Shown here: one piece after another, positions 28,742 to 63,709 of the stretch
How positions within the stretch are numbered: position 1 is the first letter of the stretch
Layout: the number at the start of each line of letters is the position of its first letter
IMG/VR virus record: IMGVR_UViG_3300030329_003436
Span: 31,471-95,470 of that record
Origin: a virus
DNA length: 64,000 nt
Direction: 5' to 3' (one strand)
Made by a program: the position numbers and the translations under genes
Notes under the pieces: generated by a model
Seen by the model: only the letters and a program-made list of their open reading frames with translations
Database searches by the model: none
Told to the model about the DNA's origin: nothing

Positions 28742-29944
28742 CTACGGCTGGTTCATTTCCATATCAGTGTCAGGAAGCATCGGCATTTTCGACTTAACTG
28801 TCAAATCGTTAAAGTTACGATATGAATAAGTGACAGTCGAGTTAGCACCACCAGTATCACCACCACCCCAAGTTACCGAAGTAAGCTTGTTTTTGACACC
28901 AAGGTCAAAGTGGGCAACCGCGTTGGTGGATTCCGTGTTGCCACCAGCACTGTTGTCATAAGTTGCAATTGGTGTCTTCAACTCATCAGTCGGCTCAATA
29001 AAGAACTCAATCCGTCTTTCGTTAACATTGTCTGCTTCTGGAAGGGCGTCAACATTATCTCCACCACGAGCCAAGACTTCAATTTCACACGTTACTTCAA
29101 CTGGGAAGGTAACATATCTGAAGTATGGAAGCTTCTGACCAAGAACGTTAATTTGTTCACGACCAAAGTCAACACTAATGGTTGCGCTTGTGATCTTGGC
29201 TTCATTGTCCGCAGTCGGTTGACCATCAACATCACTCCATGCGGTGGTATAGCCGGAAATATCTCTATGGACATTGGTTAAGTTATTCGCATCCGTATCT
29301 TGTGTATAAAGACGAACATTTTGGCGTCTTTGAACACGACCAGAGTGTAATCCCTGCTTTGAACCCGTAGTGGTAGTCTTGTCTTTACTAGGCACGCCAT
29401 GGATGTGTTTGGCGGGCGTTGCATACCATTTTTTGTGGTTTCCAACAAGCGTGATGGATTCAGTCAGGTTTCCGTCTGTTGACAGACTAAATGAGGCGGA
29501 AGACATGTACAACCCCGACATCCATACGGCGGTTGTGGGTTCAGCGTCACCAGCATTATTATGCGCATCGCTTGTTAAACTAAACCAAGCATCAACTTTG
29601 TTGTTTTGCATCTGCGGAATTGTTTTTGCAGCATCGGCATCATTGAAATCTGCACATCTACTGTATAGAAGCTTGTGACTATCAATAACGCGCTCAATAG
29701 AAACTTCCACGTCGGGAACTTCTTCTACGTCTTGATAGATAGAAAGTTGACCCATTTCAAATACCTGTTCTAGGTTGAAAGTGGTCGTAATACCAACGCT
29801 CTGAACGCCGGGAACATAGACGGCATTCATTATGTTTTGACCGCCGTTGGGGTCAGCGATACGCGCACCAGCGCCGTCTACGCTGCCTTCTCGCCCGATT
29901 CCAAGAGCCTGAATCGCCCAATAAATTCTATTATAATCAGCCAT
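28742..29944 (-). CDS. Major tail tube protein (400 aa)
   Basis: The protein forms the tail tube. The start ATG 29944 follows GGAGAGAAATTAC. The N-terminal half has the usual siphoviral tail-tube sequence style: VQSVGITTTFNLEQVFEMGQ, then a long beta region VEVSIERVIDSHKLLYSRC. Cys is rare. It is followed by the terminator at 28685-28712 and preceded by a perfect copy of the motif TTGGTGTATAAT, so it is probably a single-gene high-output transcript. Its place between the connector genes and the tail chaperones/tape measure is diagnostic. At 400 residues it is larger than minimal tube proteins (about 150-250), so an extra surface domain is likely. I see no sheath gene beside it. Confidence 0.82.
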   Translation of the reverse strand: MADYNRIYWAIQALGIGREGSVDGAGARIADPNGGQNIMNAVYVPGVQSVGITTTFNLEQVFEMGQLSIYQDVEEVPDVEVSIERVIDSHKLLYSRCADFNDADAAKTIPQMQNNKVDAWFSLTSDAHNNAGDAEPTTAVWMSGLYMSSASFSLSTDGNLTESITLVGNHKKWYATPAKHIHGVPSKDKTTTTGSKQGLHSGRVQRRQNVRLYTQDTDANNLTNVHRDISGYTTAWSDVDGQPTADNEAKITSATISVDFGREQINVLGQKLPYFRYVTFPVEVTCEIEVLARGGDNVDALPEADNVNERRIEFFIEPTDELKTPIATYDNSAGGNTESTNAVAHFDLGVKNKLTSVTWGGGDTGGANSTVTYSYRNFNDLTVKSKMPMLPDTDMEMNQP

Positions 29945-59414: not shown

Positions 59415-60167
59415 CTATGGTACTCCTAGTATGTAATCACTCTCTTGTAAGAGATCCTTGTTATCGGCAAGAATAGCTCTGTACGTAGGGTTGGTCTCCA
59501 TTTCCTTGTATCTTTGAGTGACGTTCATGGCAGAAGCGTTCTTCAGGTACTTCATGCCGTCAAAGGAGCTACCATTACCAAATATAGAGAGTTGGTCTAG
59601 GGCAGCGTCTGTAAAGTGTAGGCCAAGTCTTTCAGCAAGATCTTGTCTGTATTTAGGGTCTTTAACCCATTGGTTGTATTTGACAAACACAATACTGCCA
59701 ACCGGAGAGTACCAATTTAGGTGGTCAGCGTATGTGTCTATGTCAATTGAGTCAATAAGCATGTCTATTGGTTTGTTATCACGTTCAGCCATCTTGACAC
59801 AACTTGCAACCCAATTGCGAAAGTCTCTAAGAACAACAACCAGTCTCGGTTTATCAACAAAAACCGGCGATTCCGAGTGAGCATAAGCCACTTCGGTTAG
59901 TTTTTCACGTTCATGGGTAGAAATAAGTAAGTCCGGCTTAATGTCCCACATCAAGTCAGTGAATTTCAGCTTGTCTGGGTGTTCGTTGGGGCCAGTCTTG
60001 ATAGGATTGTTGGCCAGTACCGATAACTCACCACCGTTTTTTATTAGAAATAGCCATTGTGTCAAAGTATTTATAGAAAAATCAGAAATACCTTGTTGTT
60101 GGTGTAGTAACCAAATGGCCACAGGGTGGTGTCCAGTCCTATGCATACCAGCTACGACTATTTTCAT
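59415..60167 (-). CDS. Sulfotransferase-like P-loop protein (250 aa)
   Basis: N-terminal VVAGMHRTGHHPVAIWLLHQ occupies the place of the 5'-phosphosulfate loop. PRLVVVLRDFRNWVASCVKM is the 3'-phosphate-binding stretch typical of PAPS-dependent sulfotransferases (R..R/S pattern). VFVKYNQWVKDPKYRQDLAE resembles the later conserved helix. Different in sequence from the Stf0-like protein at 41328-41981. Lies between the HTH protein (TAATG overlap) and gmd. Expected to sulfate a glycan. Confidence 0.68.
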   Translation of the reverse strand: MKIVVAGMHRTGHHPVAIWLLHQQQGISDFSINTLTQWLFLIKNGGELSVLANNPIKTGPNEHPDKLKFTDLMWDIKPDLLISTHEREKLTEVAYAHSESPVFVDKPRLVVVLRDFRNWVASCVKMAERDNKPIDMLIDSIDIDTYADHLNWYSPVGSIVFVKYNQWVKDPKYRQDLAERLGLHFTDAALDQLSIFGNGSSFDGMKYLKNASAMNVTQRYKEMETNPTYRAILADNKDLLQESDYILGVP

Positions 60168-60961
60168 TATCCGCCCTTTGTTGTGTCAGGGGTGAGAAAA
60201 GGTTGATCGACTAGATTGTCTTCATATTGGTGCCATTCAGACAGTCGTTCTTGTTCAGAACCCATAGCAATTCTCATTTTTTCCATGTCTTCGCCCATCT
60301 TTCGACGAGTTTCAGGGTTTGACATGAGATTTCTTACCCAACCAATGAAAGTTTGCTTAGAATCTTCCAGTCTTTTGATACGCTGCTCTCTTGTAGCCTT
60401 TAGATCTTTAAGCATTGCTGCTTTTTTGGTCTGTAAGTCTTTGTAGTCGCGTGTTAGAGTCTCTTGAGCGGAACGTAAAACAGCAATTTGTCGTTCTAGG
60501 TTGAAGATATAGTCCTTGTCCTGTATTTCGAGTGGCTGTTGCTTCTCAGCAGTAACCATTTCCTCATATCTGTCTATGTCGATCATGTTCGTTTGTTGAT
60601 TTTTAAGTGCGCGATTCATTAAAACCTCAAGCTTGATAGCATCCAGCACTTGTAATTCCTCTGTTGGAAGAACATCATCGCGAAATTGAGAGATAATACG
60701 TCCCCAGTGATAGACAATAATATCCAGTTCATCTTTTGAGAACTGACTCTCTAGGTCTTTCCAGTATGCGCGTGACTTCAAGTCGTATGCAGCTTCAAGT
60801 TCTCGCTTCTGAATCTTACTAGAACCCAGTTTTTTCTCTATATGGTCTTTAACAGACTGCGGGTCACGGTCTAATTGTGACGCGATTTGATTCACAGACA
60901 AAGATTCGTGGTTTTCTTTGATAAAAGCCTGCTCTGTCTTAGAAAATCTACCCTTCTTCAT
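60167..60961 (-). CDS. HTH/coiled-coil protein, candidate small terminase subunit (264 aa)
   Basis: Residues 5-45 (FSKTEQAFIKENHESLSVNQ, IASQLDRDPQSVKDHIEKKL) form a helix-turn-helix of Myb/SANT style. The middle is alpha-helical and ends in a long coiled coil (FNLERQIAVLRSAQETLTRD). This domain plan (DNA-binding N-terminus plus oligomerising coiled coil) is like small terminases, which recognise the packaging site. It lies upstream of the large terminase but separated from it by the modification and nuclease genes, so a regulatory role (for example with the sigma factor just upstream) is also possible. Confidence 0.5.
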   Translation of the reverse strand: MKKGRFSKTEQAFIKENHESLSVNQIASQLDRDPQSVKDHIEKKLGSSKIQKRELEAAYDLKSRAYWKDLESQFSKDELDIIVYHWGRIISQFRDDVLPTEELQVLDAIKLEVLMNRALKNQQTNMIDIDRYEEMVTAEKQQPLEIQDKDYIFNLERQIAVLRSAQETLTRDYKDLQTKKAAMLKDLKATREQRIKRLEDSKQTFIGWVRNLMSNPETRRKMGEDMEKMRIAMGSEQERLSEWHQYEDNLVDQPFLTPDTTKGG

Positions 60962-61478
60962 AGCCGTTTTCTCGTAAAATACCCTGTATTTCTTTATAAA
61001 TTTGCTCCCTACGTGGCTTAGACACGTAGACGTTGTGTAAAATTCTCAAATAATCGGAGCGAAGAGAAACACTGAGGTTCTCATCTATTAAATCAAACAG
61101 TTCTTTGTCTTCAATCATGCGAATAAAATCATCATCAAGCCGCATATTCCGTTCGGCCTCATCACGTATGTTGGTGATATCCAGAGGCTCCATCAGATGT
61201 TTCTTGGAATTGTTAATATTGCTTTCGTTCTTTGATTGTCTATAGAAATTATCTCGTTTGAAATTGTTTAGCCGATTTTTAACATGAACAGCTAAGAAGT
61301 TTTCAAGTGGACGCTTTCCGTCATAGCGATCAAGAGCCTCCATAGCAATTATAAACGCTTCTTGTTTAATATCTTCAGGTGTGTAGTATGCAAATTGAAA
61401 TTTGTATGCGTATCTATTCGCTATCTTCTCTATCGTCTCCGTCACTTGTTGTTCTGTCATGCCCTTGGGGATCTTCAT
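60948..61478 (-). CDS. Phage sigma factor, sigma-70 region 2 type (gp55-like; 176 aa)
   Basis: Residues 28-78 match sigma region 2: FAYYTPEDIKQEAFIIAMEA, LDRYDGKRPLENFLAVHVKN, RLNNFKRDNFYR. The first part is the core-polymerase-binding helix and -10 reading helix. The rest is helical and lacks an obvious -35-reading region 4, so it resembles T4 gp55 (185 residues), which recognises an extended -10-like late promoter without a -35. Starts at ATG 61478, with GAGG 11 bases upstream. It is near the start of the leftward virion block, and probably drives it. The function is inferred from family. Confidence 0.78.
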   Translation of the reverse strand: MKIPKGMTEQQVTETIEKIANRYAYKFQFAYYTPEDIKQEAFIIAMEALDRYDGKRPLENFLAVHVKNRLNNFKRDNFYRQSKNESNINNSKKHLMEPLDITNIRDEAERNMRLDDDFIRMIEDKELFDLIDENLSVSLRSDYLRILHNVYVSKPRREQIYKEIQGILRENGYEEG

Positions 61479-62989: not shown

Positions 62990-63018
62990 TTGTCGGTACT
63001 ATAAGCCGATACTATAGA
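62990..63018 (+). promoter_or_regulatory. Rightward sigma-70-type promoter P1
   Basis: TTGTCG, 17 bases, TATAGA. Inside it TACTATA occurs twice at a 13-base spacing (62997-63003 and 63010-63016), and the spacer contains GCCGATA, also found in the two promoters downstream. It lies 19 bases before the 28-residue microprotein. The 62,876-62,989 gap upstream holds only a short hairpin (TTGAGA/TCTCAA, 62925-62941) with no terminator features. Confidence 0.6.
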
Positions 63019-63036: not shown

Positions 63037-63123
63037 ATGACTACAAGTTTACTATTATTTAGTGCAGTTGTTTGGGGTTTAATCGGTGCAGAAGTATGGA
63101 ATAGACACATAGAAAATATCTAG
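63037..63123 (+). CDS. Membrane microprotein (28 aa)
   Basis: ATG 63037 with AAAGGTAGG upstream. Product: MTTSLLLFSAVVWGLIGAEV, then a short charged end (WNRHIENI). One membrane helix covers most of it. It has its own promoter (P1). Too short for family assignment, but the good ribosome site and promoter argue that it is translated. Confidence 0.6.
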   Translation: MTTSLLLFSAVVWGLIGAEVWNRHIENI

Positions 63124-63152: not shown

Positions 63153-63180
63153 TTGACATATGCCGATATGTATGTATAAT
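63153..63180 (+). promoter_or_regulatory. Rightward sigma-70 promoter P2
   Basis: Perfect TTGACA and TATAAT, 16-base spacer. The spacer start forms an inverted repeat CATAT-GCCG-ATATG (63157-63170), and GTATGT/ACATAC (63170-63191) can pair across the -10 and start region, so an operator is likely. Nearly identical to P3. Confidence 0.9.
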
Positions 63181-63223
63181 GAAAGACATACAAAACACAA
63201 TGCTTTTTGAAAGGGTAAACAAA

Positions 63224-63331
63224 ATGGCACAACTAGAAACACTTGCAACAGTTATCGTATACAGTGGAGTTGTTGCGTCCTTTGTAGGTTTATTTGCTAA
63301 TATAATTTATTGGAATATTTTAGGAAAATAG
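63224..63331 (+). CDS. Membrane microprotein (35 aa)
   Basis: ATG 63224 with AAAGGG upstream, downstream of P2. Product starts MAQLETLATVIVYSGVVASF and continues VGLFANIIYWNILGK; it is almost entirely one membrane segment. No family. Its promoter and leader duplicate those of the next gene. Confidence 0.62.
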   Translation: MAQLETLATVIVYSGVVASFVGLFANIIYWNILGK

Positions 63332-63342
63332 TACAGACACTA

Positions 63343-63370
63343 TTGACATATGCCGATAAGTATGTATAAT
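63343..63370 (+). promoter_or_regulatory. Rightward sigma-70 promoter P3
   Basis: TTGACA, 16 bases, TATAAT, differing from P2 by one base in the spacer (GATAAG for GATATG). Downstream CATACAAAACA and a T-run before the ribosome site also match P2's leader. The GTATG/CATAC pair (63360-63380) is kept. Confidence 0.9.
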
Positions 63371-63410
63371 AGAGGCATACAAAACAACAGCGTTTTTTGG
63401 AGAAAATAAG

Positions 63411-63629
63411 ATGACAAAGTTTAACGAAAATATCAGCGTAGAAGAAACTGAAGCCTACAAGATGGGCGAGCTAATGGAAGCATCCCGCGAAGTGCAGGAA
63501 GCTGAGGCTTCCCGCCCGATTCACGAACAATTCGGCATGACTGTCGAAGAGTGGAACAGGTCACAAGAGGCTTGGGACGTGTTGCACGATATGCACGGCC
63601 TAAGAGGTTTAGAGGGTAGGGCGTGGTAG
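63411..63629 (+). CDS. Small acidic soluble protein (72 aa)
   Basis: ATG 63411 with GGAGAAAATAAG upstream, driven by P3. Product is Glu-rich and helical (VEETEAYKMGELMEASREVQ) with a Trp/His-rich end (NRSQEAWDVLHDMHGLRGL). No cysteine or membrane segment. No family recognised. Position and strong promoter suggest an abundant early protein. Confidence 0.75.
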   Translation: MTKFNENISVEETEAYKMGELMEASREVQEAEASRPIHEQFGMTVEEWNRSQEAWDVLHDMHGLRGLEGRAW

Positions 63630-63709
63630 ATGGGTAGCCTTGCTATTCCTGAGTGAAGCCTAACACTATAACAATGGCGCCTACCTAATTTTTAACTGGA
63701 GAAAACAAA

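Follow-up and report, generated by a model that had tools for sequence, protein, structure and literature searches.

P1 and P2, two near-identical promoters of an uncultured virus, as probable members of a multi-copy early promoter class with a spacer motif

The virus record IMGVR_UViG_3300030329_003436 carries two promoter units that are nearly the same in sequence, each followed by a small open reading frame. This raises the question of whether the pair is peculiar to one genome or belongs to a wider set of promoters, and of what the bases held in common between the −35 and −10 hexamers may do. The DNA analyzed (the window) is a 64,000-base stretch that represents bases 31471–95470 of the 97,582-base record. 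The two units, termed P1 and P2, probably belong to a multi-copy class of host sigma70-type early promoters, which often carry a putative regulator site and are found in a large family of uncultured aquatic tailed phages. The promoter class itself is very probable; the number of its copies, their strand bias, the motif, the geometry of the start and the small size of the genes are documented below by sequence comparison.

The P1 and P2 units and their surroundings

Features of the locus are listed in Table 1. A sigma70-type promoter was defined by the hexamers TTGACA and TATAAT with 16–18 nt between them, and both P1 and P2 match this consensus at 12 of 12 positions. The earlier note had described two near-identical units, and this is correct, coordinates included: the 28-base cores are identical at 27 of 28 positions and spaced 190 bases apart, and each is followed by a leader with CATACAAAACA. 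The spacers are 16 nt each with one difference. A direct repeat of 31 nt displays 94% identity between the units, and a leader repeat of 25 nt displays 76%. Transcription from sigma70-type promoters is expected to start ~7 nt past the −10, with a purine preferred. No stable fold was found in either the P1 or the P2 leader.

GCCGATA had also been noticed upstream of P1. It is present there, and lies in a putative degenerate promoter, P0, whose orientation and motif agree with the family pattern. A search for homologues of the 28-aa open reading frame behind P0 in related loci gave none. The 35-aa and 72-aa products encoded behind P1 and P2 show no significant Pfam or PHROG family.

Table 1. Features of the P1/P2 locus and of elements to the right of the window (window positions unless a locus is named)
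Feature	Position	Strand	Remarks
HTH + long coiled-coil protein	60167..60961	−	PHROG "D5-like transcriptional regulator", E 3e-5; 63/63 loci
Phage sigma-like protein	60948..61478	−	Pfam Sigma70_r2; present in 63/63 loci; divergent from early genes
P0, putative degenerate promoter, TTGTCG-N17-TATAGA	62990..63018	+	GCCGATA at 63005-63011; weak, hexamers 4/6 each
28-aa hydrophobic microprotein MTTSLLLFSAVVWGLIGAEVWNRHIENI	63037..63123	+	ORF behind P0
P1 early promoter core, TTGACA-N16-TATAAT	63153..63180	+	−35 63153-63158; −10 63175-63180; GCCGATA 63162-63168
CATACAAAACA, predicted start and initial transcribed leader of P1	63187..63197	+	A at 63188; family A+1/T+2 spacing; P1 one base farther from −10
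Ribosome-binding site GAAAGGG, P1 unit	63209..63215	+	from sequence
35-aa single-helix membrane microprotein MAQLETLATVIVYSGVVASFVGLFANIIYWNILGK	63224..63331	+	behind P1; homologue L027:1696-1794, E 6e-7
P2 early promoter core, TTGACA-N16-TATAAT	63343..63370	+	−35 63343-63348; −10 63365-63370; GCCGATA 63352-63358
CATACAAAACA, predicted start and leader of P2	63376..63386	+	A at 63377; family start pattern
Ribosome-binding site GGAGAA, P2 unit	63399..63404	+	from sequence; similar TGGAGAAAA sites at 63692, 63885
72-aa acidic protein	63411..63629	+	behind P2; homologues in L011, L017, L008
Hairpin copy	L005:3854-3937		in this record, right of window
Second-class promoter site	L005:4209-4226 (record 96209-96226)		in this record
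Hairpin copy	L005:5237-5312		in this record, right of window

The 16-mer TTGACATATGCCGATA is present in exactly two copies in the window, and also two in the whole record. Within the early region of the record, the early strand has no perfect or one-mismatch promoter besides P1 and P2, and a third perfect copy is absent from the 97,582-base record, from which most of the early region is probably missing. The rightward early genes begin near 61.6 kb and leave the right end of the record ~4.6 kb beyond the sigma gene; an N gap interrupts this stretch. At the left end, the first genes are those of a DNA polymerase exonuclease subunit and the polymerase. The distance between the sigma gene and the polymerase is ~60–83 kb in four longer relatives, and sequences of the relatives G003, G011 and G012 span across the record's ends. 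The presence of only two copies is thus ascribed to the record having been cut, with most of the early region likely absent. For the same reason, the proposal of the earlier note that a lack of further copies would refute its interpretation does not apply to this record. The search for more copies that it had suggested finds none in the record, but about 16–26 in the long early region of each of the relatives, and the exact 16-mer is found again in G003 and G013.

No cultured phage matched the region by megablast. The exact 28-mer was not found in viral contigs, because the relatives vary the spacer.

The promoter class in related viral loci

With the sigma-like protein as an anchor, 63 related viral loci were collected. 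The sigma-like gene is paired with the HTH/coiled-coil neighbor in all 63; its protein has no match among cultured phages. Promoters were counted in 40 non-redundant loci (607 kb) using the pattern TTGACA-N15..18-TATAAT. There are 93 perfect promoters, every one of them on the early strand (divergent from the sigma gene). A shuffle control, run five times, gave 0, 0, 1, 3 and 1. Among whole records, 14 of 15 hold perfect promoters, those of each record all pointing in one direction, with a maximum of 19 per genome. Counting near-perfect as well as perfect copies, the early strand of four larger relatives carries 16, 24, 26 and 20, vs 0–3 on the opposite strand. Multiple copies in a single direction in the early region are thus a property of the relatives; the record itself, whose early region is incomplete, has two. 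Scanning for the modal pattern gave matches in at least 119 viral stretches; among the 117 of these that were read, 80 have at least two such promoters, and in no case is there one on the opposite strand. The family consensus gave only weak matches to cultured phages, none over 80% of the query.

Family promoters are preceded by A-rich tracts and have −35 and −10 hexamers that are perfect or nearly so, with spacers of 16–17 nt. At 5 nt past the −10 are found C, A (83%) and T (75%), the likely start being CA(+1)T as judged by conservation only. The leader has a median length of 33 nt and is half A. The earlier suggestion that a repeated kind of promoter precedes small genes is borne out, with products of 35 and 72 aa at this locus and a median of 65 aa for the first open reading frame downstream in the family. 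It had been suggested further that the cassette is a module that can be copied, and here only the repeated promoter class holds. Spacers are more alike within a genome than between genomes (0.52 vs 0.43; 0 of 200 label shuffles), but upstream flanks and leaders show no greater likeness within genomes than between them. This pattern favors selection by a shared factor over copying of the whole cassette. Lineage effects may account in part for the within-genome likeness of spacers.

The promoters would most likely be fired by the host housekeeping RNA polymerase at once on DNA entry, since they appear to require no phage factor and to out-compete host promoters. Each would give a short A-rich leader with a ribosome-binding site, leading to one small early gene. 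The early promoters of phage T4 are very strong host-sigma70 promoters of the UP/−35/TGn/−10 type with extra conserved bases, and are thought to out-compete host promoters (PMC2988021). The class described here resembles them in having many strong UP/−35/−10 promoters of the host-sigma70 type before early genes (PMC2988021), and differs in what is conserved in addition, here a floating 7-bp motif within the spacer. Multi-copy phage early promoters are a known kind of element; the variant described here has a floating motif embedded in it. By terminase, the phage is not of the T4 type: its matches in cultured phages all have <60% identity, and are to phages of Bacillus, Lactococcus, Staphylococcus and others, none of Escherichia.

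GCCGATA in the promoter spacer

GCCGATA is present in 35 of 92 spacers, vs 0.04 in shuffled spacers. The broader pattern G[ACT]CGAT[AG] is present in 48 of 92, vs 0.27 in shuffled spacers, and is mostly GCCGATA. In the same 92 promoters the motif was found neither in the 17 nt upstream nor in reverse orientation in the spacer. The early regions examined total 163 kb; of their 65 forward copies of GCCGATA, 59 lie between −35-like and −10-like hexamers, and none of three reverse copies is in a promoter context. The position of the motif varies, from 2–8 nt from the −35 and 1–7 nt from the −10, and it is often followed by nnTAT. About half of the perfect promoters do not have the motif, and one lineage (L062) is almost wholly without it. 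A literature search for GCCGATA together with phage found nothing relevant among the papers searched.

A separate DNA-binding protein fits a floating distance better than does a fixed polymerase contact. GCCGATA is most likely a putative binding site for a sequence-specific, probably phage-encoded regulator, which would block the promoters jointly later in infection and bring about an early shut-off. Joint shut-off of the promoters by a regulator bound at GCCGATA is favored, with modest confidence, on the sequence patterns. The HTH/coiled-coil neighbor of the sigma gene was considered as the regulator. This is unsupported: all relatives have the protein, even those in which the motif is absent, and its model weakly resembles a small terminase, which according to the model match it could be instead. 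It is thus a weak candidate.

A doubtful alternative, though one with several points in its favor, is that GCCGATA is a strength element read directly by host RNA polymerase or sigma, with no regulator. The motif is found only in the spacer and always in the orientation of transcription, it often precedes nnTAT, and no regulator has been assigned to it. Against a direct polymerase contact, the distance from motif to the −10 and −35 varies by ~6 nt, which turns it to different sides of the helix; within the same genomes, many perfect promoters do not have GCCGATA; and a second promoter class (described below) has nCGATA over the −10 itself.

The operator of a lysogeny repressor, in the style of the cluster A mycobacteriophages, is unlikely. 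The L5-type operators and stoperators are asymmetric sites, many per genome, with orientation correlated with transcription (PMC9283540), and GCCGATA is likewise asymmetric, numerous and aligned with transcription, as are L5-type repressor sites (PMC9283540). The L5-type sites, however, are also intergenic stop sites outside promoters, whereas 59 of 65 sites here are inside promoter spacers and copies outside promoters are almost nil. The cognate repressor of the L5 type is a monomeric HTH protein; here neither an HTH_3 repressor nor a tyrosine integrase was found in eight records, which may be incomplete. For this reason shut-off in a lytic infection is preferred to lysogeny.

The earlier note had proposed inverted repeats as a shared operator: GTATG/CATAC on either side of the −10, and CATA/TATG in the spacer around the motif, the latter for P2 only. 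Both repeats are real and are present in P1 as well as in P2, but they are not conserved in the family, and as an operator they are very improbable. Of 92 promoters, 12 have the repeat across the −10, slightly over a re-paired mean of 6 (3 of 500), and the other 80 do not; for the repeat around the motif the count is about as expected, 7 of 48 vs a re-paired mean of 5. The element that is shared is instead the asymmetric GCCGATA of the spacer. The weakest explanation, local duplication of one promoter in one phage with no wider meaning, would account for the 27/28 identical cores and the two exact copies in the record, but is already contradicted by the 16–26 copies of the class in relatives, by an upstream flank identity of 33%, which is background level, and by the layout in L027 (sigma-like protein 47% identical to that of this record), where the homologue of the 35-aa microprotein lies between two family promoters, the second of them immediately following the stop codon.

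With the regulator reading of GCCGATA preferred, a broader role can be put forward tentatively: one phage regulator may read (n)CGATA in two promoter classes, in the early spacers and over the −10 of the box-dependent class, and so time the switch from early to later transcription family-wide, together with a multi-copy structured RNA carried by the same transcripts. What appeared to be a two-copy curiosity points to a family-wide regulatory code, with tens of near-identical early promoters per genome. The promoters flag likely host-takeover genes of a widespread group of uncultured aquatic phages. The motif can be used to locate such genes, and its putative binding protein is a definite target.

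Host matches, second promoter class and RNA hairpin

A host search with the promoter pattern in bacterial genome contigs gave mostly single matches across unrelated taxa. Multi-copy contigs belong to MAGs labeled SAR202, Micavibrio and Gammaproteobacteria. With scattered single matches and mixed MAG labels, no host could be called. Two SAR202 MAG-binned contigs, L218 and L279 (VFHP01000007, VFHP01000013), have several such promoters, and another contig of the SAR202 MAG has a relative of the sigma-like protein (43%). These contigs are a possible host hint or mis-binned phage.

The phage itself encodes a second sigma-like protein, in the replication block (L003:2746-3261), in addition to the one of Table 1, which is beside late genes. 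A block of glycosyltransferase and nucleotide-sugar epimerase genes is found in the rightward arm (L003:3258-11754, L004:2345-4230). The sequence GGTGTATAAT, with no −35, is upstream of leftward (late) genes at window positions 29944, 48992 and 54468 and is a possible late promoter. Candidate late promoters of the form GGTGTATAATA number three in the record, all on the late strand, and are too few for a claim.

The second promoter class has the sequence AGTGACC-N4-GTGTCAC placed 10 nt before [GT]ATAAT. The AGTGACCTAACGTGTCAC box is centered near −31, there is no −35, and the distance to the GATAAT/TATAAT −10 is fixed at 10 nt. The −10 usually reads CGATAAT, so that nCGATA is kept over it, usually with G replacing the first T. 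A is at +1 in 16 of 16 sites from nine genomes, including this record; the other sites are in L007, L008, L010, L011, L017, L030, L053 and L054. As in T4 middle promoters with a MotA box (PMC2988021), a box near −31 replaces the −35 and the −10 is separate. Unlike the MotA box, the box here is a palindrome with 5-bp arms.

A hairpin element consists of GGGTAAGACGAG, a covarying stem of 14–18 bp and a loop CnGTCTCA. In seven sequences 10 of 18 pairs are doubly changed, and none of 500 shuffles reaches the covariation score. Approximately 35 copies were found, up to ~10 per 10 kb, between genes and nearly all on the early strand. Besides this record, the hairpin is present in its nearest relatives, L007, L008, L009, L010, L011 and L012; no copies elsewhere were reported at E up to 1. 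An Rfam search of the right end of the record gave a chance hit only, with no family for the two hairpin copies there. The hairpin is possibly a cis-acting leader RNA, and GTCT of the loop could pair with an upstream AGAC.
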